Shown piece by piece: positions 33,039 through 61,313 of a stretch of DNA of 64,000 nt; within the stretch, counting starts at the first letter, position 1, and every line of letters begins with the position of its first letter. This stretch comes from Candidatus Accumulibacter contiguus. GTDB lineage: Bacteria; Pseudomonadota; Gammaproteobacteria; Burkholderiales; Rhodocyclaceae. The position numbers were made by a program, and so were the translations under genes. A model generated the notes under the pieces. That model saw only the letters and a list, made by a program, of their open reading frames with translations. It made no database searches and was not told the DNA's origin. The stretch covers positions 1 through 64,000 of the forward strand of contig NZ_SPMX01000012.1 of NCBI RefSeq assembly GCF_012940005.1, given 5' to 3'.

Positions 33039-34133
33039 ATGCGGCTGAACACTGCCTTTCCCCGAAACATTCTGCTGCTCGCGCTGTTCGCCCTGCCCAC
33101 CGCCTGCGGCAAGCAGCCGGCAGTGCCCGAACCCGCCCGGCCGGTGTTGACACAGGTTCTTGGCAAAAGCGCGGGGGACGAGGTTCTCGCCTACTCGGGA
33201 GAGGTTCGCTCACGTTACGAAATCCCGCTCGCCTTCCGCATTCCCGGCAAGATCACTGCCCGCCTGGTCGATGCCGGCAGCATGGTCAAGGCCGGTGAGG
33301 TACTGGCCAGGCTCGATCCGGCGGACAGCACGCTGTCGGCAGCGGCGGCTTCGGCGCAACTGGACCTTGCTGCTGCCGATCTCGATCGTTTCAGGAATCT
33401 GCATGCCAGGAACTTCGTCAGCCAGGCGGCCCTCGATGCCAAGGAGACCAGCTTCAAGGCCGCGCAGGTACAGGCTGAACTGGCCCGCAACCAGACCGCC
33501 TATACGATTCTCAAAGCCGAACAGGCGGGGGTCATCGGACTCGTCACGGCTGAAGTCGGCCAGGTCGTCGCGGCTGGGCAGACCGTGATGCGACTGGCGC
33601 GTGCCGACACCCTGGAAGTCGCCATCTCGATCCCCGAGGCACGCATGCCGGAGTTGCGCGCGCTTCGGTCCGCTGCGGTGAGCCTGTGGGCCGACCACGA
33701 GGCCAGCTATCCGGGAACGCTGCGCGAAGTGTCGGCGGTTGCCGACCCGGTCACCCGCACTTACGCGGCACGCGTGTCTATCCACCATCCGGATGCCCGG
33801 GTTCTACTCGGGATGACCGCCAAGGTGCATTTCCATCGCCCACAAGAGAGGGCTCGCCTGACGGTGCCGCTGACGGCCATTTTTCAGCACGCTGGCCACC
33901 CAGCGCTATGGGTGGTCAGCGCGGACCAGACCGTCGCCTTGCGACCGGTAGTGCTTGCCAGCTATCGGGAAGACACCGCCGTACTCGACAGCGGCGTGCA
34001 GACCGGCGAAAGAATCGTCGTCGCCGGCGTCCATAAGCTGAGCAGCGGCGAGCACGTCCAGGTCATCGAACAGGCGCCCCGGTTTGACGAAACCCTGCCG
34101 GAAAAGGATCGGCAAGGCACCTCCGGGCGATGA
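33039..34133 (+). CDS. RND efflux periplasmic adaptor lipoprotein (HlyD/AcrA family)
   Basis: This encodes 364 residues. A lipoprotein signal ends in LPTAC (Cys23). The order beta-barrel/lipoyl/hairpin is visible: lipoyl half GKITARLVDAGSMVKAGEVL, coiled-coil hairpin about residues 95-155, second lipoyl half AGVIGLVTAEVGQVVAAGQT, then a beta-barrel with LLGMTAKVHF. It links the inner-membrane pump to an outer membrane channel. The stop overlaps the pump start (ATGA), so the two are coupled. No TolC-like gene is adjacent. Substrate unknown. Confidence 0.92.
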   Translation: MRLNTAFPRNILLLALFALPTACGKQPAVPEPARPVLTQVLGKSAGDEVLAYSGEVRSRYEIPLAFRIPGKITARLVDAGSMVKAGEVLARLDPADSTLSAAAASAQLDLAAADLDRFRNLHARNFVSQAALDAKETSFKAAQVQAELARNQTAYTILKAEQAGVIGLVTAEVGQVVAAGQTVMRLARADTLEVAISIPEARMPELRALRSAAVSLWADHEASYPGTLREVSAVADPVTRTYAARVSIHHPDARVLLGMTAKVHFHRPQERARLTVPLTAIFQHAGHPALWVVSADQTVALRPVVLASYREDTAVLDSGVQTGERIVVAGVHKLSSGEHVQVIEQAPRFDETLPEKDRQGTSGR

Positions 34134-37100
34134 CTTCTCCCAATCTGTCCGAATGGGCGCTTCGCCACCGCTCGCTGGTTGCCTATCTGATCGTCGTGCT
34201 GATGCTCGGTGGTGTGCTTGCGTATTTCAAGCTCGGCCGCGCCGAGGATCCGGACTTCACCTTCAAGGCGATGGTGGTGCGTACACTGTGGCCGGGCGCT
34301 ACTGCGAACGAAGTGCAACTGCAGGTCACCGAACGGATCGAAAAGCGCCTGCAGGAAGTCCCCTGGGTCGACGTACTGCGCTCGCAGACGCGCTCCGGCG
34401 AGTCCTTGATCACCGTTCTGCTCAAGGACTACACCCCGAAGAAGGAGGTTCCGGAAACCTGGTACCAGGTCCGCAAGAAGATCGGTGACATGCGGCATAC
34501 GCTACCGCAAGGCGTTCTCGGCCCCTTCATCAACGACGAATTCGGCGATACCTTCATCAGCATCTACGCTCTGACCGGCGATGGCTTCGACCTTGCCACG
34601 CTGCGTCGTGAAGCCGACCGCATCGCCCGCGAATTGCGGCAGGTACCCGACGTCAAGAAAATCGAGTTGATCGGCGTCCAGGAAGAAAAAAATCTACATC
34701 GAGGTTTCGCACGCCAAGCTGGCGACGCTCGGTCTCAATCCGTTGGCGATCTTCGACGCACTACAGAAGCAGAACACGATGACTCCCGCCGGGTTCTACG
34801 AAACGCCGTCCGACCGGGTGCGCATTCGCGTCTCGGGCGATTTCAAGTCGCAGGAGAGCATTCGCGAGATCGGCATCCAGGCCGACGGGCGCCTGTTCCG
34901 CCTCGGCGACATCGCGACGGTTGAACGTGGTTTTGCCGATCCCCCGACACCACGCATGCGCGTTCAGGGGCAGGAAGCGGTCGGCATCGCCATCGCCATG
35001 AACAAGGGGGGCGACGTGATCCAGCTCGGCGACCGTTTGCGTGCCGAAACCGAGCGCCTGCAGAAGCAGTTGCCGCTGGGAATCGACATGCACGTCGTCG
35101 CCGACCAACCGCAGATCGTCCGCCAGTCGATGAACCTCTTCATGTCCTCGCTGGCCGAAGCCGTCCTGATCGTCCTGGCGGTTTCCTTCCTCAGCCTCGG
35201 CCTGCGCACCGGCGCCGTCGTCGCCCTGTCGATCCCGCTGGTGCTGGCGGTCACCTTCCTGTTGATGGCCATATTCGGGATCGACCTGCAGCGGATTTCG
35301 CTCGGCGCGCTGGTCATCTCGCTTGGCCTGCTGGTCGACGACGCGATCATTGCCGTCGAAATGATGGTCGTGAAAATGGAACAGGGCTGGGATCGCTTCC
35401 GCGCGGCCACCTTCGCCTATACCTCGACCGCTTTTCCGATGCTCACCGGCACCCTGATTACCGCCGTCGGCTTCATGCCGGTTGGTCTCGCCAGGTCCGG
35501 TGCCGGTGAATACACCTTTTCGATCTTCGCGGTGGTGAGCATCGCGCTGCTGGTTTCCTGGGTTGTGGCGGTGCTGTTCACCCCCTACCTGGGCTACCTG
35601 CTGCTGGACGCCGAAAAACTGCACCACCAGGCGCAACAACACGAGGAAGAGACGTACCAGACGCCGTTCTATCGTCGTGTGCGCGCGACCATCGAATGGT
35701 CTTTGCGGCATCGCTGGCTGGTGATCGCCGCCACGCTGATCGCTTTCGCGGCAGCACTGGCAGGACTGGGACTGGGTGTGCAGAAACAGTTCTTTCCAGC
35801 ATCGAGTCGTCCCGAGTTGCTGGTCGACCTGTGGCTGCCGAACGGCGCTTCCCTGAAAGCAACCGAAACGGCGAGCCGGAAGGTCGAAGCGATCCTTGCC
35901 GAGCCGGAGATGAAGCGCTCGATCAAGTACTTCGCGAGTTATCTCGGAAATGGCAGCCCGCGCTTCTACCTGCCACTCGACCAGCAACTGTTCAACGACA
36001 ATTTCGCGCAATTGGTCATCACCACCCACGACCTCGCGGCGCGCGAGGATCTCAAGCGACGCCTCGAAGAACGCTTTGCCGATGCCGGCGGCGAATGGAG
36101 CAGCCTGCGCACGCGCGTGCTGCGCCTCGAAAACGGTCCGCCGGTGGGTTTTCCGGTCGTCTTTCGGGTTTCCGGCGAAGACCTCGGTGAGTTGCAGCAG
36201 CTCGCCGCGGCAGTGGCCAGCGTGATGCGCGCCAATCCACACCTCAAGGAAGTGAACTTCGACTGGAACGAGATGGGCAAGATGATCCGTATCGACATCG
36301 ATCAGGATCGCGCACGCGCACTCGGCGTCAGTTCGCAGGAACTCTCGGCTTTCCTCAATTCGATGTTGACCGGCGTCACCGTGACGCAGATGCGTGCAGG
36401 CGACCAGTTGGTCGACGTGGTCGCGCGCGCCGCTGGCGACGAACGCTCCCGCATCTCGGCGCTGGCCGACATCAACATCCATACCAGCAGCGGTCGTTAC
36501 GTGCCGCTGGCGCAACTGGCTAAGATCAGCTTTGCTCTCGAAGATACCGTGATCGCGCGCCGCAACCGTCTGCCGACGGTCAGCGTACGTGCCGACCTCC
36601 TCGACGGCATGCAGGCGCCCGCCGTCACCGCCCAGATCGATCCCCTGCTCGACGCGCTGCGCGCCCAGTTGCCGCCCGGTTTTCGTATCGAGGCCGGAGG
36701 GGCCAGCGAGGAGTCGGCCAAGGGCGAGAATTCGATCAAGGCGGTGATGCCGTTGATGCTGGTTGGTGTCATCACCTTGCTGATGATCCAGTTGCAGAAT
36801 GTCGGCCGCATGTTGCTGGTACTGCTCACGGCACCGCTCGGGCTGATCGGCGTCGCGCTGGCGCTGCTGATCTTCCAGGTACCTTTCGGCTTCGTCGCCA
36901 ACCTCGGCGTCATCGCGCTTTCAGGGATGATCATGCGCAACTCGGTGATTCTCGTCGACCAGATCGAACAGGACGAAAAAGCCGGCAAGCCGGCCTGGGA
37001 AGCAATCATCGGCTCGGCGGTGCGGCGCTTCCGACCGATCATGCTGACTGCCGCAGCAGCCATCCTGGCGATGATTCCGCTGACCCGCAGCGTCTTCTGG

Positions 37101-37241
37101 GGACCGATGGCAGTCGCCATCATGGGCGGGCTGATCGTCGCCACGCTGCTGACCCTATGGTTCCTGCCGGCGCTCTATGCCGCCTGCTACCGGGTCAGGC
37201 CGGTCGATGCAAGAACCGCAGGCGCGGCCGCCAAGGTTTGA
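34130..37241 (+). CDS. RND efflux permease (AcrB/HAE1-like), frameshifted near 34689
   Basis: If read through one frameshift, this encodes about 1,036 residues, normal for the family. It is a proton-driven inner membrane pump. The N-terminal helix and first porter domain read [19 protein letters not shown] and [13 protein letters not shown]. Helix 4 keeps the proton-relay Asp pair in [14 protein letters not shown]. Large periplasmic loops follow helices 1 and 7. Seven A residues (34686-34692) break the frame; six would give [17 protein letters not shown]. The last 55 bases overlap the convergent histidine kinase gene. It pairs with the upstream adaptor. Drug or metal specificity cannot be read from the sequence. 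Confidence 0.9.
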
Positions 37242-50645: not shown

Positions 50646-51458
50646 ATGCGTGATCCAACCATCACGGGATACATGGGGGCTGCGGACAGGCAGCTCTTCT
50701 ACTGTTTTGACGCACCACGGCGAGCAAGAGCGCGCCCCTTCGGTTTCGTCCTCTGCCCTCCGTCAGGGCGCGAATACGTCTCCACCCACCGCGTCTTTCG
50801 ACAATTCGCCAGCCGTCTGGCGCGCGCCGGTTTCCCGGTGCTGCGCTTCGACTACTTCGCAACGGGCGATTCTGCCGGCGAGGACAGCGAAGGCAGTGTG
50901 GAGCAATGGCTCGATGACGTCGCCACAGCGGTGAACACCTTCCGCAATCATAATCCCGGCGCGCCGGTCTGGCTTGCCGGCCTGCGCGTCGGCGCCAGCC
51001 TGGCTGCCCTGCATGCCGAACAGCACCAGGACGTCGACGGCCTGATCCTGTGGGACCCGGTGGTGAACGGCAATCGCTACGTGGATCAGCTGCTCGAAGC
51101 CCACCAGCAGCGCTTCCGCCAGACGGTCGGGCGCGATCAGACCACCTCGGATGCAGACGGGATGCGCGAGATTTTCGGTTTCCTCCTCTCTCCCCGCCTG
51201 GAAAGCGGCCTGCGCGCCATCGACCTCGCCACCCTGCCGCGGGCCCCTGCCCCGCAGGTGCTGCTGATGAGCAGCAGCCCGCAGGCCGACCCGGATGACT
51301 TGGGTAACCGGCTCGCTGCGCTTGGTGCAAGCGTCGATCGGAAACACGTGCTGTGGCCCGAACTATGGGCCGAGGGAGCAGAAATGAACGACGTACTGAT
51401 GCCGCCGGCGCGTGTTCTGCAGGCAATGGTCGAATCGGTACAGGGAGGTCGGCGATGA
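50646..51458 (+). CDS. Alpha/beta hydrolase-fold protein lacking the nucleophile Ser
   Basis: This encodes 270 residues. The fold is recognisable from FGFVLCPPSGREY, AGFPVLRFDYFATGDSAGED and WLAGLRVGASLAALHA. At the nucleophile elbow the expected G-x-S-x-G reads G112-L-R-V-G116, with Arg at the Ser position, so hydrolysis is doubtful. It distantly resembles the hydrolase 2 type found in exosortase-A polysaccharide clusters. It has a good GAGGGGG ribosome binding site and overlaps the next hydrolase gene (ATGA). A structural or chaperone-like role beside the active second hydrolase, or an unusual chemistry, is possible. Confidence 0.75.
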   Translation: MRDPTITGYMGAADRQLFYCFDAPRRARARPFGFVLCPPSGREYVSTHRVFRQFASRLARAGFPVLRFDYFATGDSAGEDSEGSVEQWLDDVATAVNTFRNHNPGAPVWLAGLRVGASLAALHAEQHQDVDGLILWDPVVNGNRYVDQLLEAHQQRFRQTVGRDQTTSDADGMREIFGFLLSPRLESGLRAIDLATLPRAPAPQVLLMSSSPQADPDDLGNRLAALGASVDRKHVLWPELWAEGAEMNDVLMPPARVLQAMVESVQGGRR

Positions 51459-52342
51459 TCGAGCGCGTTCTCCGTTTCGGGGACAGCGATAACCTGATCG
51501 GCATCCATACCTCCAGCGCCGCGTCCAGCAAACGTCCCGGCATCGTGCTGGTGAATTCCGGGGTCGTTCATCGTGCCGGTCCCAATCGACTGTACGTGAA
51601 TATTGCCCGGCAACTCGCTGCCGTCGGCTACCCGGTGCTGCGCTTCGACCTCTCGGGAATCGGCGACAGCAGCCCACGCAGTGACGCGCTGAGCTTCGAG
51701 AAGAGTGCCATCAGTGAAACCTCGGCAGCGATGGCCGCGCTCGGTGCCGAGAGCGACTGCAGCGGCTTCATCCTGTGCGGGATATGCTCGGGGGCCGACA
51801 TCTCATTTCTCACCTGCCGCGACAACCCGGCGGTGCTTGGCGCCGTGCTGATCAACGGGCGCGGCCTGCATGGCGTCACCGACGACTCTGGTGATGCGAT
51901 TGATGCTGGCATCAACAGTACCCTGCGCGCCAGCGAATCGGCGCGCTACCTCTGGAAGAGTGCCCTCTTCAACTCGGCTAGCTGGCGCAAGCTGCTGAGC
52001 GGGCAGAGCAATCCCATCGAACTGCTGCGTGTCGTCGGCCGGCAATTCCTGCGGCGCTTCATCGGCAGCGAGCAGGTCCCGGAAAATGCACCGGAACTGC
52101 GCGCTGCCTTCCACTGCATCCTCGATCGTGGCACCGCCCTGCTGATGGTGTACTCCGAAGGCGACCCTGCCCTCGACTACATGCAACTGATGCTGAGCAA
52201 GGAAATGACGAGGATTGCCAGCTACCCGAACTTCGCCGAGATCCGCATGCCGGGAGCCGATCACACCTTCACCGCGCGCCATCACCGCGACGAACTGATC
52301 GCCGCCCTGCGCCGTTGGGCCGATGCCCACTTCGCCGCCTGA
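51455..52342 (+). CDS. Alpha/beta hydrolase with Cys nucleophile
   Basis: This encodes 295 residues. The fold shows PGIVLVNSGVVHRAGPNRL, AVGYPVLRFDLSGIGDSSP and a nucleophile elbow G109-I-C-S-G113 with Cys111 in the catalytic place, as in dienelactone hydrolase-type enzymes. Candidate acid and His are in YSEGDPALDY and PGADHTFT. It overlaps its upstream neighbour (ATGA) and, by 20 bases, the phosphopantetheinyl transferase gene. Since the PKS has no thioesterase domain, this enzyme is a good candidate for product release. That role is inferred from context. Confidence 0.8.
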   Translation: MIERVLRFGDSDNLIGIHTSSAASSKRPGIVLVNSGVVHRAGPNRLYVNIARQLAAVGYPVLRFDLSGIGDSSPRSDALSFEKSAISETSAAMAALGAESDCSGFILCGICSGADISFLTCRDNPAVLGAVLINGRGLHGVTDDSGDAIDAGINSTLRASESARYLWKSALFNSASWRKLLSGQSNPIELLRVVGRQFLRRFIGSEQVPENAPELRAAFHCILDRGTALLMVYSEGDPALDYMQLMLSKEMTRIASYPNFAEIRMPGADHTFTARHHRDELIAALRRWADAHFAA

Positions 52343-53111
52343 AACGCGCGCGCCGATCACGCTGGCAAACATTGCCGAACTGCTCGACAAGGCGCCTGCC
52401 CCACTGCTGTCCGGCGACGACCTCCACCTCTGGCTGCTGCCCCTCCCGATTGAGCACGAGGCGCTGCGGCAAACGATCGAAAAGCTCCCCGCTGCCGCCG
52501 AGCGTGCCAGCGCCGCCCGCCGGGTGTTCGCCGCAGACCGATTGCGCCAGATACAATCTCGCGGCCTGCTGCGACACCTGCTCGGGTATTACCTCGCACG
52601 CGACCCGCAAGGCCTCGACTTCACCACCAACGACTACGGCAAACCAGCACTGAGTACGGCCGGCGGACTGCAGTTCAACCTTTCCCACTGCCGGGATCGC
52701 GTTCTCATCGGGCTGACCCGCCGGCTACCGATCGGCGTAGATCTTGAGCGCATCCGCCCCTTGCCCAACCGGTACGCGCTCGCCACCCACTGTTGCAGCG
52801 CCGACGAATTGAACTGGCTGGCCGGCAGGTCAGCAAGCGACCAGGACCGGGATTTCTTCCGCATCTGGACCGCCAAGGAAGCCGTCCTCAAAACCCTCGG
52901 CACAGGCCTCGCCCGCCCGCCCGAGCAGGTCACGATCAGCCTTCCCAATACCGACTCCGGATTCGCCAGGGTGACCGGAGCGGGTTCGCCCTGGACGCTC
53001 TTTTCCACCTGCCCCGACGCCGACCACGCCATCGCCGCGGGCATCCGGGCAGTCATCAGCCGCGGACAGATTCGTTGCTTCCACGTCGCAGGCGAGCGCC
53101 TTGATCAGTAG
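52323..53111 (+). CDS. 4'-phosphopantetheinyl transferase, Sfp type
   Basis: This encodes 262 residues. It would load phosphopantetheine onto the carrier domains of the NRPS and PKS. Signature residues are LSHCRDRVLIGLTRR, GVDLERIRP (Mg-binding Asp) and FFRIWTAKEAVLKTLGTGL. The length fits the Sfp group rather than AcpS. The ATG at 52323 lies inside the end of the hydrolase gene, so translation is coupled. A dedicated activator in the cluster supports its being a functional secondary-metabolite locus. Confidence 0.92.
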   Translation: MPTSPPETRAPITLANIAELLDKAPAPLLSGDDLHLWLLPLPIEHEALRQTIEKLPAAAERASAARRVFAADRLRQIQSRGLLRHLLGYYLARDPQGLDFTTNDYGKPALSTAGGLQFNLSHCRDRVLIGLTRRLPIGVDLERIRPLPNRYALATHCCSADELNWLAGRSASDQDRDFFRIWTAKEAVLKTLGTGLARPPEQVTISLPNTDSGFARVTGAGSPWTLFSTCPDADHAIAAGIRAVISRGQIRCFHVAGERLDQ

Positions 53112-53132
53112 CCAGGGTTGTCAGGAATATAT

Positions 53133-53161
53133 TTGAAGTGCCCACGGCAGTGTACTAAATG
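53133..53161 (+). promoter_or_regulatory. Possible promoter for the NRPS gene
   Basis: An AT-rich patch in otherwise GC-rich DNA holds TTGAAG (53133-53138) and TAAATG (53156-53161) with a 17-bp spacer, plus two GTACTA repeats (53152-53157, 53161-53166). The -10 match is weak. The gap of 191 bases before the NRPS leaves room for a second promoter. Confidence 0.25.
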
Positions 53162-53302
53162 TACTAGACTGTATGAACAGATTCGACCCCATGGTACCGG
53201 AGAAAATGCCAGCAAGAGGTCGAGCGCAGGGGTCAGCCGGAACCGCAGCGGCGGGCGGCAAGCCCATAAGAACAAAGCAATCCACAGGGTCAGGGAGAGA
53301 TC

Positions 53303-56300
53303 ATGTCTTGCCAAGTAAACGATGCCGCCTGTTTGGAACAGGTTGCGCAGTTGCTACCCATATGTCATCATGGGTGCCCGATTCCTCGCCGGACGCAGGC
53401 CCAGGAACGAATCTGGTTCCTGGAGCAAGCCTATCCTGGCCACGCCCTCCTCCGCGTCGCCAGCGGCGCGCGCATCGTCGGGCCTCTCTGCACGGACGCC
53501 CTGCAGAACGCCATTGACCGGGTCTGCGCTCGTCATGAGGTGCTCCGGAGCAGCTTCGGAGCCCCGCCGCAAACGCTCTCCGTCACCAGCCCTGCACTGA
53601 CCGTCGACAGCCTCTCGGAAACGCCCGGCAGCACTGCCCAAGCACGCGCGCGCCAACGCTGGATCGCCGTCAACGCCGGCACACCGCAGGATCTCGGCCA
53701 GCCGCCACTGCTGCGGGCACAGCTGCTGCGCCTCGCCGATACCGAGCACCTGCTGCTGCTGTGCGCCCACCGCTACATCTGTGACGAGGAAGCCCTCGAC
53801 CTGCTGCTCGGAGAGATCGCGAACAACCTCGACGGCCGCCTGCCAGACGGCCCGGCGGCACCGACCTTCGCCGATTTCGTTGCCTGGCAACACCCGCAGC
53901 AGGCCACCCTCCTCGCCCACTGGACAGAACGGCTCGCCGGTGCGACGGCGCTGCTGGAACTGCCGACCGACCACGCCCGTCCAGCGATCCGGAGCTACCA
54001 GGGCGCCAGCCTGCCGCTGCCGCTGCCAGCGCCGCTCGTAGACCGTTTGCGCGCACTCGCGGCAAGGCACGCGCTGGACCTGCCAGGGGTATTCCTGGCG
54101 GCTTTTGCCGCCCTGCTGCAGCGCCACAGTGGCCAGAACGACCTGGTGATCGGCCTGCGCAGCAGCTACCGGGCGCAAGCGCCCTTTTCCCGGCTGGTCG
54201 GCCCGCTCGACAACATCCTCGCGCTACGCCTGCAGATCTCGGCCGACGCCGACACCGACACCCTGCTGCAGCGCTGCGGCGAAGCCCTCGCGGATGCCCG
54301 CGCACATGCCGGACTGCCCTTCGAGCGCCTCATCGAAGCCCTGCAGCCCAGCCGCAACCTCGGCTACGCACCGGTCTGCCAGGTGCTCTTCGACTACCAC
54401 ACGGCGCCCCCCCGTGACGCTGCCGGCCGGCGCCGTCACGCTGCACCCCTTCGCCGTCGATCTCGGCAGCGCCGACCATGACCTGAGCCTGCGTGTCGAC
54501 GAGGATGGCGACCATCTCGTCGCCCGCCTGATCTATGATCCGGCGCTGTTCGACGAAACCACCCTGCAGCGACTTGCCGGCCACTATCTGAACCTGCTCG
54601 ACGATCTCGCCGCCGACACCCGCAAACCAGCGGCCACGCTGCGCCTGCTTGGCGACAGCGAATGGCGGCAGCTTGTCGACGAGTGGAACGCCACCGACGG
54701 CGACTACCCGGCCGATTCGTCGCTATCGCGCCTTTTCGAGATACAGGCGGACCGCAGTCCCGACGCGCCGGCCATTCTCGGCGTCGGCACGGGTCTGAGC
54801 TACCGGGAACTCGACCAACGTTCCAGCCAGCTTGCGCACCACCTGCGCCAGATCGGCGTCGGACATGAAACCCTGGTCGGCGTCTCGATGGAACGCTCCC
54901 CCGAGTTGTTCGTCGCCGTCCTGGCGATTCTCAAGGCGGGTGGCTGCTACGTGCCGATCGACCCCGGCTACCCTCGTCATCGCGTCTCCGCCATGCTCGC
55001 AGACAGCGCCGTCGCACTGCTTCTCACCAAGACGCGCTGGCTGGCGGCACTGCCCCCCCAGCACGCCGAGGTGCTCTGTCTCGACCGCGACTGGCCGGCA
55101 ATCGCCCGCCAGGCATCCACTCGCCCGCTCAGCCCGGCTGGCGCCGCCAGCCTGTGCTACGTGGTGTTCACCTCGGGTTCGACCGGGCGACCGAAGGGCG
55201 TCCTGGTCGAGCAGCGCCAGCTCCTCAACCGCCTGGCCTGGATGTGGCGGGAATATCCCTTCGTTGCCGGCGATGTCTCCGCCTGCAAGACCGCCCTCAA
55301 CTTCGTCGATTCGCTGTGGGAACTGCTCGGCCCCTTGCTGCAGGGCGTGCCGAGCCTGCTCATCCCGCAACCGGTGCTCCTCGATCCACAGGCCATGGTC
55401 GCCCTGCTCGCCGAATACCGCGTCACCCGGATGATGCTGGTCCCGTCGCTGCTGCGCATGCTGCTCGACGCGCACGAAGTGAGTAATGCCCCCAACCAGC
55501 TCGCCGCCCGCCTGCCGCTGTTGCGCGAATGGTGCATCGGCGGCGAACCTCTTGGTATCGAACTCGCCCGGCGCTTCGCACGGGCACTGCCGGGACGTCT
55601 GCTGCTCAACCTCTACGGCCTCTCGGAAGCCTTCGATGCCTGCTTCTTCGACGCTGGCCAGCTTGCCGACAGCGATACCCTGGTACCGATCGGACGCCCG
55701 CTGGCCAACGTTCAGGCCTATATCCTCGACGCCCACCGCCAACCGGTGCCGGTCGGCGTCATCGGCGAACTCTACGTGGGCGGCGCCGGACTCGCCCGCG
55801 GCTACCTCGGCAGCCCCGAATTGAGCGCCGAGAAATTCATTCCTAACCCATTCCGCAAGGAAGCCGGCGCCCGCATCTACCGCACCGGCGATCTGGCCCG
55901 CTACCGCGCCAACGGGTTCATCGATTACCTGGGCCGCAGCGACCATCAGGTCAAGATCCGCGGCTTCCGTATCGAACCCGACGACGTTGGCAGCGTCCTT
56001 TGCAGTCACCCGGACATCCTGGAAGCGGTGATCGTCGCCCGTCCCGACGCCCGCGGCGAACTCGCCCTCGCCGCCTACTATGTTGCCCGCGCAGCCAGCA
56101 CCCTGGCAGCCGGCACGCTGCAGCCCTGGCTGCGCGAACGCCTGCCCGAGTACATGGTGCCCAGCAGCTACACGGCGCTGGCCGCCCTGCCGCTGACACC
56201 CAGCGGCAAAGTCGACCGCCTGTCGCTGCCCGCACCTGACAACTGTCCGCAAGCGCCGGCCGCGTCCTATCTGTCCCCGGACGACGCCACCGAGCAAGCC

Positions 56301-56612
56301 ATCGCTGCCATCTGGCAGGCGGTGCTGCTGGTCGAGCGAGTCGGCAGCACCGACAACTTCTTCGAACTGGGCGGCACCTCGCTGCGCATGCTCGAGGTCA
56401 ATCGCCGCTTGTGCGAGCACCTGCATCGCGCCATCCCGGTGCTGCAGATGTACCAGTACCCGACCATACAGAGCCTGGCGCGCTCCCTCAACGCGGCAAG
56501 TGGCCTGTCATCAGCCAGCCCGCCGGCCATCCCGGCCGGTCGGGAACGCGCCATGCAGCGCCGGGAAATGCAGAATCGCTGCCCGCCCGCCGGCAGACGA
56601 TCGCCCTCCTGA
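53303..56612 (+). CDS. Nonribosomal peptide synthetase, C-A-T, frameshifted near 54410
   Basis: If read through one frameshift, this encodes about 1,102 residues. The condensation-like domain (residues ~25-430) has ahead RTQAQERIWFLEQ, but its HHxxxDG site reads HRYICDE, with Arg for the catalytic His. The adenylation domain (~460-960) has YVVFTSGSTGRPKG, NLYGLSEAF, IYRTGDLARY and PLTPSGKVDR. Core 4 reads NFVDSLWEL, so position 235 is Val and the Asp is at 236, as in beta-alanine-type pockets; other pocket residues do not settle the substrate. The carrier domain has FFELGGTSLRML. Seven C residues (54407-54413) break the frame; six would give TAPPVTLPAGAV. It precedes the PKS by 84 bases. Confidence 0.88.
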
Positions 56613-56696
56613 GCCACGGCAGTCGCGCCGCTCCCTTGAAGAGGGACGCAAACCGGACCTTCACATCCCCGCAGCCAGTCAGAACCGAGTGCCGAC

Positions 56697-59600
56697 ATGA
56701 ACCAGCCCGCTGCCATCCCCCACCCCAACGACATTGCAATCGTCGGCATGAGCTGCCGCTTCCCCGACGCCAATGACGTTTCCGTTTTCTGGCGCAACCT
56801 GGAACAGGGGGTCGAATCGATCAGCTTCTTCTCCGAAGCCGAGCTGCTCGCCGCAGGCGTCGACCCCGCCCTCCTCGCCGACCCGGCCTACGTTCGCGCC
56901 GGTGCGGTGATCGACGACATCGACTGCTTCGACGCTGCCTTTTTCGGTTACAGCCCGCGCGAGGCCAGCCTGATCGAACCGCAGCAGCGGATCTTCCTCG
57001 AATGCGCCTGGGAAGCCCTCGAACGCGCCGGCTACACCCCCGCCTCGCATGGTCGTGCCATCGGCGTTTTCGCCGGCTCGGCGATGAACGGCTACCTGAT
57101 CTACCACCTCGCCACCCGCCCGGACGTGGCACCGTCGTTGTTCGACTTCCAGATTCAGATCGGCAACGACAAGGACTACCTGACCACCCGTGTCTCCTAC
57201 AAGCTCAACCTCACCGGCCCGAGCATCAACATCCAGTCCGCTTGCTCGACCTCGCTGGTGGCGGTGCATGTCGCCTGTCAGAGCCTGCTCAACGGCGAGT
57301 GCAATCTGGCGCTGGCCGGTGGCATCTCGATTGCCGTTCCGCACCGGATCGGCTACCTCTACCAGGAAGGCGGCGTCAATTCCGCCGACGGGCACTGCCG
57401 GGCTTTCGACACCGATGCCCGCGGCACGGTGCTCGGCAGCGGTGCCGGCGTCGTCGCGCTCAAGCGCCTCGCCGACGCCCTCGCCGACGGCGACCACATC
57501 CACGCCGTGATCAAGGGCTCGGCGGTGAACAACGACGGCAACGCCAAGGTCGGCTACACCGCTCCCAGCGTCAGCGGCCAGGCGGCCGTGGTCGTCGAGG
57601 CTCTGGCCATGGCCGGACTGACGGCCGACACCATCGGCTACATCGAAACGCACGGCACCGGCACGCCAATGGGCGACCCGATCGAGATACAGGCCCTCAC
57701 CCAGGCCTTTCGCGAAAGCAGCACGCGCCAGGGTGACTGCGCGATTGGCTCGGTGAAGACCAACATCGGCCACATGGACGTCGCCTCGGGCGTCGCCGGG
57801 CTGATCAAGACCGCGCTGATGCTCGAGCATCGGCGCATTCCCGCGTCGCTGCACTACCGCCGGCCGAACCCGGAAATCGACTTTGCCAACAGCCCGTTCT
57901 ACGTGAACAGCACGCTTGCCGAGTGGACACAGCCGGTCTGCCGCGCGGGTGTCAGCTCCTTCGGTCTCGGCGGAACCAATGCACACGTGCTGCTCGAGGA
58001 GGCCCCAAAGCGTGCCGCCGCCAGCGCGTCGCGCGCCTGGCAGTTGATCCTCCTGTCGGCACGCACGCCCGGCGCCCTCGAGCGCATGACCGAACGTCTT
58101 GCCGATCATCTGCGCGCCGATCCGGCGCAGCCCCTCGCCGACATCGCGTTCACCCTGCAGACCGGCCGCGAACGCTTCGCGCACCGGCGCATGCTGGTCT
58201 GCCGCGACCACGACGGGCTCGTACAGGCGCTGCTCGCGGGCGACTGCCAGCGCGGTGCCGAAGCGGTCTGCGAACGGCAGAACCGGCCCGTGGTTTTCAT
58301 GTTCCCCGGCCAGGCGCGCCAGTATCTGGGAATGGGGCGCGAGTTGTACGACGCCGAGCCGCTGTTCCGCGCGGAGGTCGACCGCTGCGCCGAAATCCTG
58401 ATCCCCCACCTTGGCCAGGATCTGCGCTGCCTGATCTGGCCTGCTCGCGAGGCCAGCGCAGCAGCGCTGCAGCAGACCTGGATCGTCCAGCCGGCGCTGT
58501 TTGTCATCGAATACGCACTGGCGCGCCTGTGGATCAGTTGGGGCATCCGCCCGGCGGCGATGATCGGCCACAGCATCGGCGAGTACGCCGCGCTCTGCCT
58601 GGCCGAAGTGATGAGCCTCGCCGACGCCCTCAGGCTGGTGGCCGCGCGCGGCCGCCTGATGCAGGAGATGCCGGCTGGCAGCATGCTCGCCGTCGACCTG
58701 CCGGAAAGCGCCCTCGTCGATCTCGAAGCCCGCGGTCTGGCGCTGGCCGGGGTCAACGCGCCCGAGCGCTGCGTCCTTTCCGGAGCAACCGAGGCAATCG
58801 CCGCCTGCCAGCAACAGCTCGATGCCAGCGGCCAGCCAAGCCACCTGCTGCACACCTCGCACGCTTTCCATTCGGCGATGATGGAGCCGATCCTCGAGCG
58901 CTTCACCGCCGTGGTCGCAACGATCCCGCTGCAGGCGCCGCGCCTGCCGGTGGTCTCCAACCTCAGCGGCACCTGGCTCAGCGCCACGCAGGCCTGCGAC
59001 CCGGCGTATTACGCCAGGCACCTGCGGCATGCCGTGCGCTTTGCCGATGGCATCGGCTGTGCCGCCGGCGACGGCGACCCGCTGTTTCTGGAAGTCGGCC
59101 CTGGCCGCACCCTCGGGACGCTCGTCCAGCAATGCGCGGCAAGCTCCGGCAGCGAGGGTGCGCTATGGTCGATGCGCCACCCGCAACAGCAGGAACCCGA
59201 CCAGGCGATGCTGCTCGCCACCCTCGGTAAGCTCTGGCTGGCCGGGGTCAACGTCGATTGGGCCGGCTTCCATGCCAATCAAACGCGTCGCCGCGAGCCC
59301 TTGCCGGGCTACCCCTTCGAACGCCAGCGCCACTGGATCGAGCCCGGTCGACTAGTGGCGCAGGCGGCGGACGAGCGCCCGCCGACACGGGCAACACCAG
59401 GCAAGCGCCCTCTCGCCGACTGGTTCTACCTGCCCGCCTGGAAACAGTGTCCCCTCCCCGCCGGCAACACGCCGGCCAAAGGGCCGTGGCTACTGTTCAC
59501 CACCGGCGAGGGCTTCGGCGAACATCTCGCTGGGCGGCTGCAAGCGGACGGACAGGCGGTGATCCGGGTTCTCCCCGGTATCCAGGCTGGCTGGAGTGGT

Positions 59601-61313
59601 GAGCGACGCTACACCCTCGACCCGGCACGGCGCGCCGACTACGATAGCCTGCTGGCAGCGCTGGCCAGCGCCGACCAACTGCCGAAGAGCGTCCTGCATG
59701 CCTGGAACCTGGCACCGGCTGCCGGCGACCCCGACCGGGACAGCTTTACCCGCGCCCAGGATCTCGGCTTCAACAGCCTGCTCTATCTTGCGCAGGCACT
59801 GGGCGACCGCGACTATACCGAAGCGCTCAGAATCGGCGTCCTCGGAACCGGCATCCAGGCTCTGACAGCGGGTGAACAGCCCATTGCCGAACGTGCCGGC
59901 GTACTTGCCGCCTGCATCGTCATCGCCCAGGAATACGCCAATGTCGACAGCCGCTGCTATGACCTGCAACCACCGGCCGTCGGTTCCGCTGCCGAGCAGG
60001 CACTCGGCCGTCAAATCCTGCGCGAAATCGGCAGCGACGCGCCGGATGCCATCGTCGCCTACCGCGACGGCGTGCGCTGGGTGCAGCACTACCAGCCACG
60101 GCATCTGAAGCCCGTCGCCGGCCCGCCGGCCCGCCTGCGCCCGCAGGGCGTCTACCTGATCAGCGGCGGGCTCGGCGCGATCGGCTACGCGCTCGCCGAA
60201 GATCTCGCACGCAGCGTGCAGGCGCGCCTGATCCTGACCGGCCGCAGTGCCCTGCCAGCGGCCGCCGAGTGGGATACCTGGATCAGCACGCACGGAACCG
60301 GGCACCCGTGCAGCCAGCGCATCGCGCGCGTGCGCGCCCTCGAAGGGCTCGGTGCCGAAGTGCTCGTCATCAGCGCCGACGTCGCCGACGCTGCCGCCAT
60401 GACGCGCGCGCTGGCGCAGGCCAGGAGCCACTTCGGACATATCGACGGCGTCATTCACGGCGCCGGCATCGTCGCCGAGCAAGCCTTCCTGGCCGTGCAG
60501 GACACCCGGCCAAAGCACTGCGCCGAACACTTCCGTCCCAAGGTGGACGGCCTGCTGGTGCTGCACCGCTTGCTGCGCGACGACCCGCCAGACTTCTACG
60601 TACTGCTCTCGTCGATCTCGGCGGTGCTCGGCGGCCTCGGTTATGCCGCCTACGCCGCCGCCAACGCTTATCTCGACGCCTACGCTGTGCGCGCATCGCG
60701 ACAGTCTGGACCCGCCTGGCTATCCATCGGCTGGGATGCCTGGCTCTCCGCCGCGAGCTCGGGCAGGCACGGCATGGGCGCGGTCGTCAATGCACTGGCA
60801 ATGACCACCGAAGAAGGCGTGGACGCCTTTCGCCGCATCCTCGCCGCCGACCTCGGCGCACAGGTGCTGGTATCCACCAGCGATCTCTCGACGCGCATCG
60901 CGCAATGGGTCAAACGCAAGCCGCGCGACGTCGCTGCCGCAGCGGCCGAAGCCGCTCCGAGCGTCATTTACGCCACCGCCATGCAGACGGCAATTGCCCG
61001 CGTCTGGGAAAGCGTCCTCGGCGTCAGCCAGATTGCCGCGCAGGACAACTTCTTCGACCTGGGTGGCGATTCACTGCTCCTGATGGACGTCATCGCTCGC
61101 CTCAAGGCCGGCTACGGCGTCGTCCTCAATCCGCGCGAAATCATGTTCCAGACCCTGGCCCAGCTCGCCGCCCAATGCGAGGAACGACAGGCCGCGCAGT
61201 GCGCCGCGGTGGCTGCCCCGGCTACCGCCCCTGCCACGGCAGTCGGGGCAGCGCCGGAAGCAGAACGTAAGGGCGGCCTGTTCGGCGCCTTGAAGCGCAA
61301 GATTCGCGGATAA
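56697..61313 (+). CDS. Type I polyketide synthase module, KS-AT-KR-ACP
   Basis: This encodes 1,538 residues. The ketosynthase (residues ~10-435) has ACSTSLVAVH, HGTGTPMGDP and KTNIGHMDVASG. The acyltransferase (~530-830) has GHSIGEYAALCLA and HAFHS, the pattern for malonyl-CoA. The ketoreductase (~1120-1340) has the NADPH motif GGLGAIGYALA and the catalytic SSISAVLGGLGYAAYAAANA; it lacks an LDD motif. The ACP (~1425-1495) has FFDLGGDSLLLMDV. There is no dehydratase, enoylreductase or thioesterase. The C-terminus is Ala-rich and ends in a basic KGGLFGALKRKIRG tail. One extension followed by ketoreduction of the NRPS-bound starter is predicted. Confidence 0.93.
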   Translation: MNQPAAIPHPNDIAIVGMSCRFPDANDVSVFWRNLEQGVESISFFSEAELLAAGVDPALLADPAYVRAGAVIDDIDCFDAAFFGYSPREASLIEPQQRIFLECAWEALERAGYTPASHGRAIGVFAGSAMNGYLIYHLATRPDVAPSLFDFQIQIGNDKDYLTTRVSYKLNLTGPSINIQSACSTSLVAVHVACQSLLNGECNLALAGGISIAVPHRIGYLYQEGGVNSADGHCRAFDTDARGTVLGSGAGVVALKRLADALADGDHIHAVIKGSAVNNDGNAKVGYTAPSVSGQAAVVVEALAMAGLTADTIGYIETHGTGTPMGDPIEIQALTQAFRESSTRQGDCAIGSVKTNIGHMDVASGVAGLIKTALMLEHRRIPASLHYRRPNPEIDFANSPFYVNSTLAEWTQPVCRAGVSSFGLGGTNAHVLLEEAPKRAAASASRAWQLILLSARTPGALERMTERLADHLRADPAQPLADIAFTLQTGRERFAHRRMLVCRDHDGLVQALLAGDCQRGAEAVCERQNRPVVFMFPGQARQYLGMGRELYDAEPLFRAEVDRCAEILIPHLGQDLRCLIWPAREASAAALQQTWIVQPALFVIEYALARLWISWGIRPAAMIGHSIGEYAALCLAEVMSLADALRLVAARGRLMQEMPAGSMLAVDLPESALVDLEARGLALAGVNAPERCVLSGATEAIAACQQQLDASGQPSHLLHTSHAFHSAMMEPILERFTAVVATIPLQAPRLPVVSNLSGTWLSATQACDPAYYARHLRHAVRFADGIGCAAGDGDPLFLEVGPGRTLGTLVQQCAASSGSEGALWSMRHPQQQEPDQAMLLATLGKLWLAGVNVDWAGFHANQTRRREPLPGYPFERQRHWIEPGRLVAQAADERPPTRATPGKRPLADWFYLPAWKQCPLPAGNTPAKGPWLLFTTGEGFGEHLAGRLQADGQAVIRVLPGIQAGWSGERRYTLDPARRADYDSLLAALASADQLPKSVLHAWNLAPAAGDPDRDSFTRAQDLGFNSLLYLAQALGDRDYTEALRIGVLGTGIQALTAGEQPIAERAGVLAACIVIAQEYANVDSRCYDLQPPAVGSAAEQALGRQILREIGSDAPDAIVAYRDGVRWVQHYQPRHLKPVAGPPARLRPQGVYLISGGLGAIGYALAEDLARSVQARLILTGRSALPAAAEWDTWISTHGTGHPCSQRIARVRALEGLGAEVLVISADVADAAAMTRALAQARSHFGHIDGVIHGAGIVAEQAFLAVQDTRPKHCAEHFRPKVDGLLVLHRLLRDDPPDFYVLLSSISAVLGGLGYAAYAAANAYLDAYAVRASRQSGPAWLSIGWDAWLSAASSGRHGMGAVVNALAMTTEEGVDAFRRILAADLGAQVLVSTSDLSTRIAQWVKRKPRDVAAAAAEAAPSVIYATAMQTAIARVWESVLGVSQIAAQDNFFDLGGDSLLLMDVIARLKAGYGVVLNPREIMFQTLAQLAAQCEERQAAQCAAVAAPATAPATAVGAAPEAERKGGLFGALKRKIRG

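Follow-up and report, generated by a model that had tools for sequence, protein, structure and literature searches.

The operon in the window

The subject of this study is a five-gene operon of Candidatus Accumulibacter contiguus that encodes a hybrid non-ribosomal peptide synthetase (NRPS)–polyketide synthase (PKS) system together with two proteins of the α/β-hydrolase fold, termed here H1 and H2. It occupies positions 50646–61313 on the plus strand of the window, which is the whole 64,000-nucleotide stretch that we analysed (positions 1–64,000 of NZ_SPMX01000012.1, RefSeq assembly GCF_012940005.1) and belongs to contig C24 of the 167-contig, 5.02-Mb assembly. Five genes follow one another in series: H1 (50646–51458, Pfam Hydrolase_4), H2 (51455–52342, Pfam Abhydrolase_6), an Sfp-type 4′-phosphopantetheinyl transferase (PPT; 52323–53111), an NRPS with condensation (C), adenylation (A) and carrier (T) domains, and a type I PKS (56697–61313) in which Pfam finds ketosynthase (KS), acyltransferase (AT), ketoreductase (KR) and acyl carrier protein (ACP) domains, all four and in that order. 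The first three genes overlap, H1 and H2 by ATGA and H2 and PPT by 20 bases; the H2 frame is open from a GTG at 51353 to the stop at 52342, and the ATG at 51455 is the more likely start. The PPT has both the ACPS domain and the AASDHPPT N-terminal part, as expected of an Sfp-type enzyme, and scored below the cut-off of the curated HetI model. A first-pass annotation, made from the sequence alone, had described five consecutive plus-strand genes with these overlaps, an Sfp-type PPT, a C-A-T NRPS and a KS-AT-KR-ACP PKS. Position, strand, order, overlaps and domains were all borne out; no single open frame of the window encodes the whole NRPS, which is divided between a first frame carrying the C domain (53303–54481, Pfam Condensation) and a second frame carrying the C-domain end, the A domain and the carrier domain (54294–56612; Pfam AMP-binding, AMP-binding_C and PP-binding).

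At the thresholds applied, the operon is the sole NRPS/PKS found in its genome; the genome-wide scan gave one match at E ≤ 1e-60, and the other KS/AT matches were single-domain. An earlier report ascribes clusters of the NRPS or NRPS/PKS type to an Accumulibacter bin, among others (PMC10681181). Two further genomes of the genus carry a different NRPS on short contigs, with an A-domain motif that begins SSDSVW (L030 in G018 and L046 in G005).

H1 and H2 are an Arg/Cys pair

The same annotation had called H1 and H2 paired hydrolases, which holds for their fold and misses their substance, because the position of the nucleophile is taken by Arg in H1 (elbow GLRVG) and by Cys in H2 (elbow GICSG), with Ser in neither, and the two constitute a conserved two-part module. 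All six copies of the operon that we found have G-[LF]-R-[VI]-G in H1 and GICSG in H2. H2 retains the His and, in the window, the Asp that would accompany a thioesterase-like nucleophile, and H1 lacks such a nucleophile; we therefore refer to H2 as the predicted acyl-enzyme half and to H1 as the predicted pseudo-hydrolase half. Neither protein has a Pfam thioesterase match at E ≤ 0.001, the only matches being Hydrolase_4, Abhydrolase_6 and Abhydrolase_1. The nearest curated models were hydr2_PEP for H1 (93.2 bits, cut-off 202.75) and hydr1_PEP for H2 (105.3 bits, cut-off 168.45). AlphaFold2 models, built from six sequences each, matched α/β hydrolases that include the DcsB thioesterase and, for H1, also the curacin thioesterase; the H1 model had a predicted local distance difference test score (pLDDT) of 75.6 and a predicted template-modelling score (pTM) of 0.80. 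As predictions, the models support the fold of each protein, and not the pairing of H1 with H2. Sequence and fold searches of the PDB returned annotated esterases, lipases and other hydrolases, in output that does not display the nucleophile residue of each.

To survey the pair, we pooled 61 loci, which yielded 61 H2 domains, and counted as a pair two domains on the same strand with centres within 2.5 kb. The H1 domain stood just upstream of H2, on the same strand, in all 61 cases, 13 of which were single open reading frames (ORFs); the H2 Cys and His were kept in 61 of 61, and the H1 elbow had Arg in 58 (57 in the pooled set and L092, whose H1 was split there and was read separately) and Ser in none, although these counts are not independent, as the set includes four loci from Accumulibacter, two from Zoogloea and eight from one other genus. 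Given the absence of an elbow Ser from all the pairs read, we rejected two ordinary Ser hydrolases. Distances among H1 sequences correlated with those among H2 sequences (r = 0.878), a value that none of 2,000 permutations reached. An order-wide search of 399 genomes with H2 as the sole query returned 17 places outside the window, and every one had an adjacent H1-type domain, for which the search had not selected; Cys was present in all 17 and the H1 Arg in 16, with Gly in L095. When 229 genomes of the class were searched with TIGR03101, 35 places emerged, spread over 30 genomes and 30 loci; all 30 loci had the Arg, and 29 also had a Cys partner, the remaining one (L124) stopping at a contig edge. 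In this search 20 places lay below the TIGR03101 cut-off, 15 of which we viewed in context, those left out being in G472, G538, G646 and G654 (the last of these being the window itself); nine of the 15 adjoin or form part of NRPS-like genes.

The pair recurs in several carrier-protein pathways

Inspection of the gene neighbourhoods revealed several recurrent settings. NRPS-like genes stand beside the pair in the operon copies and in L079, L080, L084, L148, L149, L150 and L153. In five other loci (L141–L145), H1 is the C-terminal part of an ORF with A and carrier domains and follows the last carrier domain of the NRPS; in L142 and L145 it falls below the Pfam cut-off and was detected by the family profile that we built. 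A flippase adjoins the pair in L145. In L148 (2–11449, genome G604), a KS-AT-aminotransferase-C-A-T protein is followed by H1, H2 and a polysaccharide flippase, and in L149 (1714–15335, genome G479), formyltransferase, AMP-binding, luciferase-like monooxygenase and carrier domains are joined in one protein beside H1/H2, and genes for an O-antigen ligase and a UDP-sugar dehydrogenase lie close by.

The fused position of H1 bears on a second reading, in which H1/H2 would have an editing role, as a type II thioesterase that strips wrongly loaded carriers, release being left to an enzyme elsewhere. Free-standing hydrolases next to an assembly line frequently belong to the type II thioesterases, and in the operon H1 and H2 are separate genes ahead of the NRPS, as this reading would have it. 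However, in the five fused loci H1 sits after the last carrier domain, which is the release position, and the operon has no other release domain, so that we consider an editing role very unlikely.

Two other settings involve known systems. Amino-acid:[ACP] ligase (seryl-tRNA synthetase (SerRS)-like) sets, with an ACP, an acyl-CoA dehydrogenase and DUF1839, accompany the pair in L052–L054, L081–L083, L146 and L147, and DUF1839 only in L089. They resemble the operon in that loading of a carrier is followed by an Arg/Cys pair, fused in L053, L054, L081–L083, L146 and L147 and of Gly/Cys type in L052; they differ in having one aminoacyl group, no NRPS or PKS, a pair that is usually one protein, and an H2 of another clade. 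In L052 (7577–10888, plasmid p3 of Rhizobium sp. NLR16a), which adjoins such a ligase set, a polysaccharide flippase domain and both hydrolase halves share one ORF, and the first half has the Gly elbow. Pairs of the exosortase-A (PEP-CTERM) type are found in L044, L087 and L088 and, by score, in the TIGR03101 loci over the cut-off. In the loci over the cut-off they form a similarly ordered, adjacent or overlapping pair of Arg hydrolase 2 (TIGR03101) and Cys hydrolase 1 (TIGR03100), and the genome of the window has such a locus of its own, with overlapping hydrolase 2 and hydrolase 1 genes, both over cut-off, and the elbows GLRAG and GLCDA. The operon proteins, in contrast, fall below both cut-offs, H2 lies off the exosortase clade, and the linkage is to an NRPS–PKS; the two cut-offs together with the position of H2 in the tree rule out assigning the operon pair to TIGR03100/TIGR03101.

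In the H2 tree, the operon groups with L079, L080, L150 and L153 (support 91/87), and the H2 of the window stands outside a 22-row clade (100/100) that holds all 17 exosortase-type rows. Five context labels required 12 changes on this tree, compared with 34.8 when shuffled; because the labels include near relatives, part of this agreement reflects shared descent. The other NRPS and NRPS–PKS loci (L079, L080, L141–L145, L148–L150 and L153) share with the operon an NRPS that adjoins or is fused to H1, followed by H2, and differ from it in module make-up; L079 and L080 keep the HH of the C-domain motif and have other A-domain codes. These loci of other bacteria were not found characterised in the literature searched.

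Glycan loci form a further setting (L055, L085, L086 and its kin, L151, L152 and L154); in L055, from Shinella, a flippase, AsnB, an ACP and an adenylating enzyme lie near the pair. We compared the 17 places of the H2 search with 15 random stretches taken, regardless of content, from seven of the same genomes, using a panel of carrier and glycan genes drawn partly from the case loci, with self-matches dropped and same-genus matches counted. Glycan genes matched at 12 of the 17 places and in none of the 15 random stretches; carrier genes likewise matched in no random stretch.

The assembly line and its frame break

The domain make-up allows a simple product to be proposed, and is consistent with the earlier proposal that a single adenylated acid is lengthened by one malonate unit and undergoes one ketoreduction. 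At the presumed PheA positions, the A domain has the code V D W S C G L D A (K), whose Lys comes from the PSGK motif; in all five copies that span them, the nine residues ahead of this Lys are identical. The domain has Val and not Asp at position 235, which argues against an ordinary α-amino acid as substrate. Its VDW start presumably resembles that of β-alanine domains, and a β-alanine-like substrate is our weak guess; the literature searched yielded no paper with either code. The AT carries HAFH, which we take to be the malonyl type. The product expected on the carrier would then be a 3-hydroxyacyl chain that exceeds the loaded acid by two carbons. Pfam detects no thioesterase domain on the PKS or elsewhere in the operon.

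The key carrier, KS, AT and KR motifs, which had been reported as all intact, are not quite so. At 58302 the AT has GQARQ in the window, compared with GQGAQ in three Accumulibacter relatives. The C domain, which that list did not cover, lacks the catalytic HHxxxDG motif: it reads HRYICDE at this site in the window and HRY[ILV][CL]DE in six of six operon copies, whereas the HH is kept in L051, L079 and L080.

In the window, the C domain and the A-T part of the NRPS are in different frames, the break lying at a C7 run (54407–54413). The NRPS is one frame of approximately 1,100 codons in two other Accumulibacter genomes, G010 and G026, and in a third, G004, the frame is open across the same domains. 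The operon could therefore be decaying and non-working in the strain of the window: neither the break nor the altered AT motif occurs in the relatives compared, and an AcrB-type transporter gene in the same extra DNA (34130–37241) is also split, into two overlapping frames. However, the break falls in a homopolymer, a pseudouridine-synthase gene on contig C93 of this assembly (L044, 7754–8894) is likewise divided between two frames at a G10 run, which suggests homopolymer errors in the assembly, and the operon is otherwise 92–93% identical between the window and its relatives. Given such a split gene elsewhere in the assembly, an assembly error is a fair, unproven explanation of the break, and we regard decay as doubtful.

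Distribution and genomic sites of the operon

The operon was found in 4 of 28 genomes of the Accumulibacter genus, that of the window included, and in two assemblies of Zoogloea oleivorans. All five genes are complete in G010, G004 (Ca. A. aalborgensis) and the Z. oleivorans metagenome-assembled genome (MAG); the contig of G026 (Ca. A. vicinus) stops within the PKS and that of Z. oleivorans Buc within the NRPS. A scan of genome contigs gave five loci, four with the operon (two in Accumulibacter and two in Z. oleivorans, with two of these copies truncated where the contig stops) and the fifth a fused pair in a Mycobacteriaceae MAG; the order-wide search of 399 genomes returned no further operon copy of comparable score. 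The gene set is conserved in relatives. Its absence from all related genomes together with clear frame decay, an outcome that the first-pass annotation had named as refuting its reading, did not appear. Nor did the material searched, which did not include MIBiG or antiSMASH, contain a characterised cluster with the same five genes, the other such outcome. Our literature search found no paper describing the H1/H2 pair or the operon. Overall, the observations of that annotation were largely right, with caveats for the frame break and the motifs, and its interpretation was partly right.

Four distinct sites accommodate the operon: that of the window, one common to G010 and G026, that of G004, and one common to both Zoogloea assemblies. 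In four genomes of the genus (G016, G001, G004 and G011), the pil-side block to the left of 32757 lies next to the PBP1A block, which in the window is to the right of 61447, so the operon of the window lies within approximately 28.7 kb of extra DNA (32757–61447). The operon is thus an accessory gene set. The same insert also carries a resistance–nodulation–division (RND) transporter, a hybrid histidine kinase and an EAL/GGDEF protein, and in the Z. oleivorans MAG a gene for a TIR-domain protein lies directly downstream of the operon (L075, 19950–20843). As the flanks differ between sites, we dropped the attempt to read a function from the neighbours in the window. A plasmid source was also rejected: a tblastn search with the PKS in 72,556 plasmid records matched 723 of them, all below 60% identity, and the corresponding H2 search matched 53, again all below 60% identity, of which four were inspected; these searches covered plasmids, and no phage or viral collections.

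A proposed divided release enzyme

Taken as a whole, we somewhat favour a model in which the operon is an accessory carrier-protein pathway that makes a 3-hydroxyacyl chain, with H1/H2 as a predicted two-part release or transfer module that holds the chain on the H2 Cys. In this scheme the PPT would arm both carrier domains; the A domain would load one carboxylic acid, not an ordinary α-amino acid; the C domain would not condense in the usual way; and the KS-AT-KR-ACP protein would add one malonate unit and reduce it, yielding a 3-hydroxyacyl-ACP. H2, standing in for a thioesterase domain, would then form an acyl-enzyme with the chain through its Cys, while the H1 pseudo-hydrolase would be the carrier-docking or acceptor-binding half. 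The chain would finally be released or transferred, the acceptor possibly being a glycan of the cell surface or a precursor of such a glycan. Because a fold without a nucleophile stands in the thioesterase position and is always followed by a Cys hydrolase, a divided release enzyme is the best reading of the pair. The predicted release role of H1/H2 is fairly well supported; the substrate and the acceptor are those that we infer.

Known enzymes offer partial parallels. Some NRPS thioesterase domains are known to use a Cys nucleophile, and those of ObiF and SulM combine an α/β-hydrolase fold and a Cys with release from a carrier, and close four-membered rings (PMC11298585). Each is one complete domain, whereas the operon has a Cys half and an Arg half, with no Pfam thioesterase match.

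A different analogy, of mechanism only, is the polyhydroxyalkanoate synthase PhaC, which we take to share the α/β fold, a GxCxG box and acyl transfer through Cys; PhaC, unlike the pair, polymerises 3-hydroxyacyl-CoA.

A further reading makes H1/H2 a release thioesterase with a diffusible product, a 3-hydroxy acid or, as for ObiF, a β-lactone, and the operon an ordinary secondary-metabolite cluster. The KR would leave a β-hydroxyl, the Cys domains of ObiF and SulM close four-membered rings (PMC11298585), H1 occupies the thioesterase position in L141–L145, and the operon of the window has no adjoining glycan gene. However, the pair is also present in amino-acid:[ACP] ligase and exosortase-A loci that have no KR, often near glycan genes, and no exporter is conserved in the operon; we judge a diffusible product unlikely.

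Several observations weigh against the divided-release model and its glycan acceptor. The H2 Asp column has Asp in only 45 of 61 pairs, the H1 elbow is Gly and not Arg in L052, L055 and L095, and the H2 structural model is of modest quality (pLDDT 65.7, pTM 0.66). Carrier genes matched at only 8 of the 17 places of the H2 search, one of them through DUF1839 alone, and at the other nine (eight from one genus, and L088) none was detected within approximately 10 kb. L084 and L088 gave no glycan panel match and the flank proteins tested at L141–L144 were not glycan genes; like the nine places that lack a carrier match, these results argue against a universal rule. Around the G010 copy only a polysaccharide deacetylase matched, and weakly (24.0 bits against a cut-off of 23.1), and the window, as noted, has no glycan neighbour. 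Finally, the meanings that we assign to the A-domain selectivity code and the PKS motifs are putative. The weak point of the model is the acceptor. Across the family the neighbours are often glycan genes, and the operon of the window is without one.

Transfer of an amino acid from a carrier to a surface sugar was proposed by Iyer et al. for the SerRS-like ligase systems, with another protein, not the hydrolases, named as the ligase (PMC2922099). A TIGR03100-like protein in an exopolysaccharide cluster of Burkholderia cenocepacia was supposed to act in polysaccharide quality control (PMC3584217). Tentatively, H1/H2 may be a general two-subunit acyltransferase from carrier protein to glycan, in which the Arg half docks the carrier and the Cys half bears the acyl or aminoacyl group, and which serves activation systems unrelated to one another (NRPS–PKS lines, SerRS-like ligases and exosortase-A ligases) and decorates exopolysaccharides with purpose-built acids.

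Implications

Beyond the operon itself, the larger result is that the Arg/Cys pair is conserved and stands where pathways that use carrier proteins end. In the literature searched, the final step is unsettled both for exosortase-A hydrolases 1 and 2 and for the amino-acid:[ACP] ligase systems; if one Arg/Cys pair ends all these pathways, acylation of the H2 Cys by a loaded carrier would define that step for several orphan systems at once. NRPS assembly lines would then be seen to end in a divided, half-dead release enzyme, and small-molecule assembly lines would be tied to the surface polymers of sludge bacteria such as Accumulibacter and Zoogloea.

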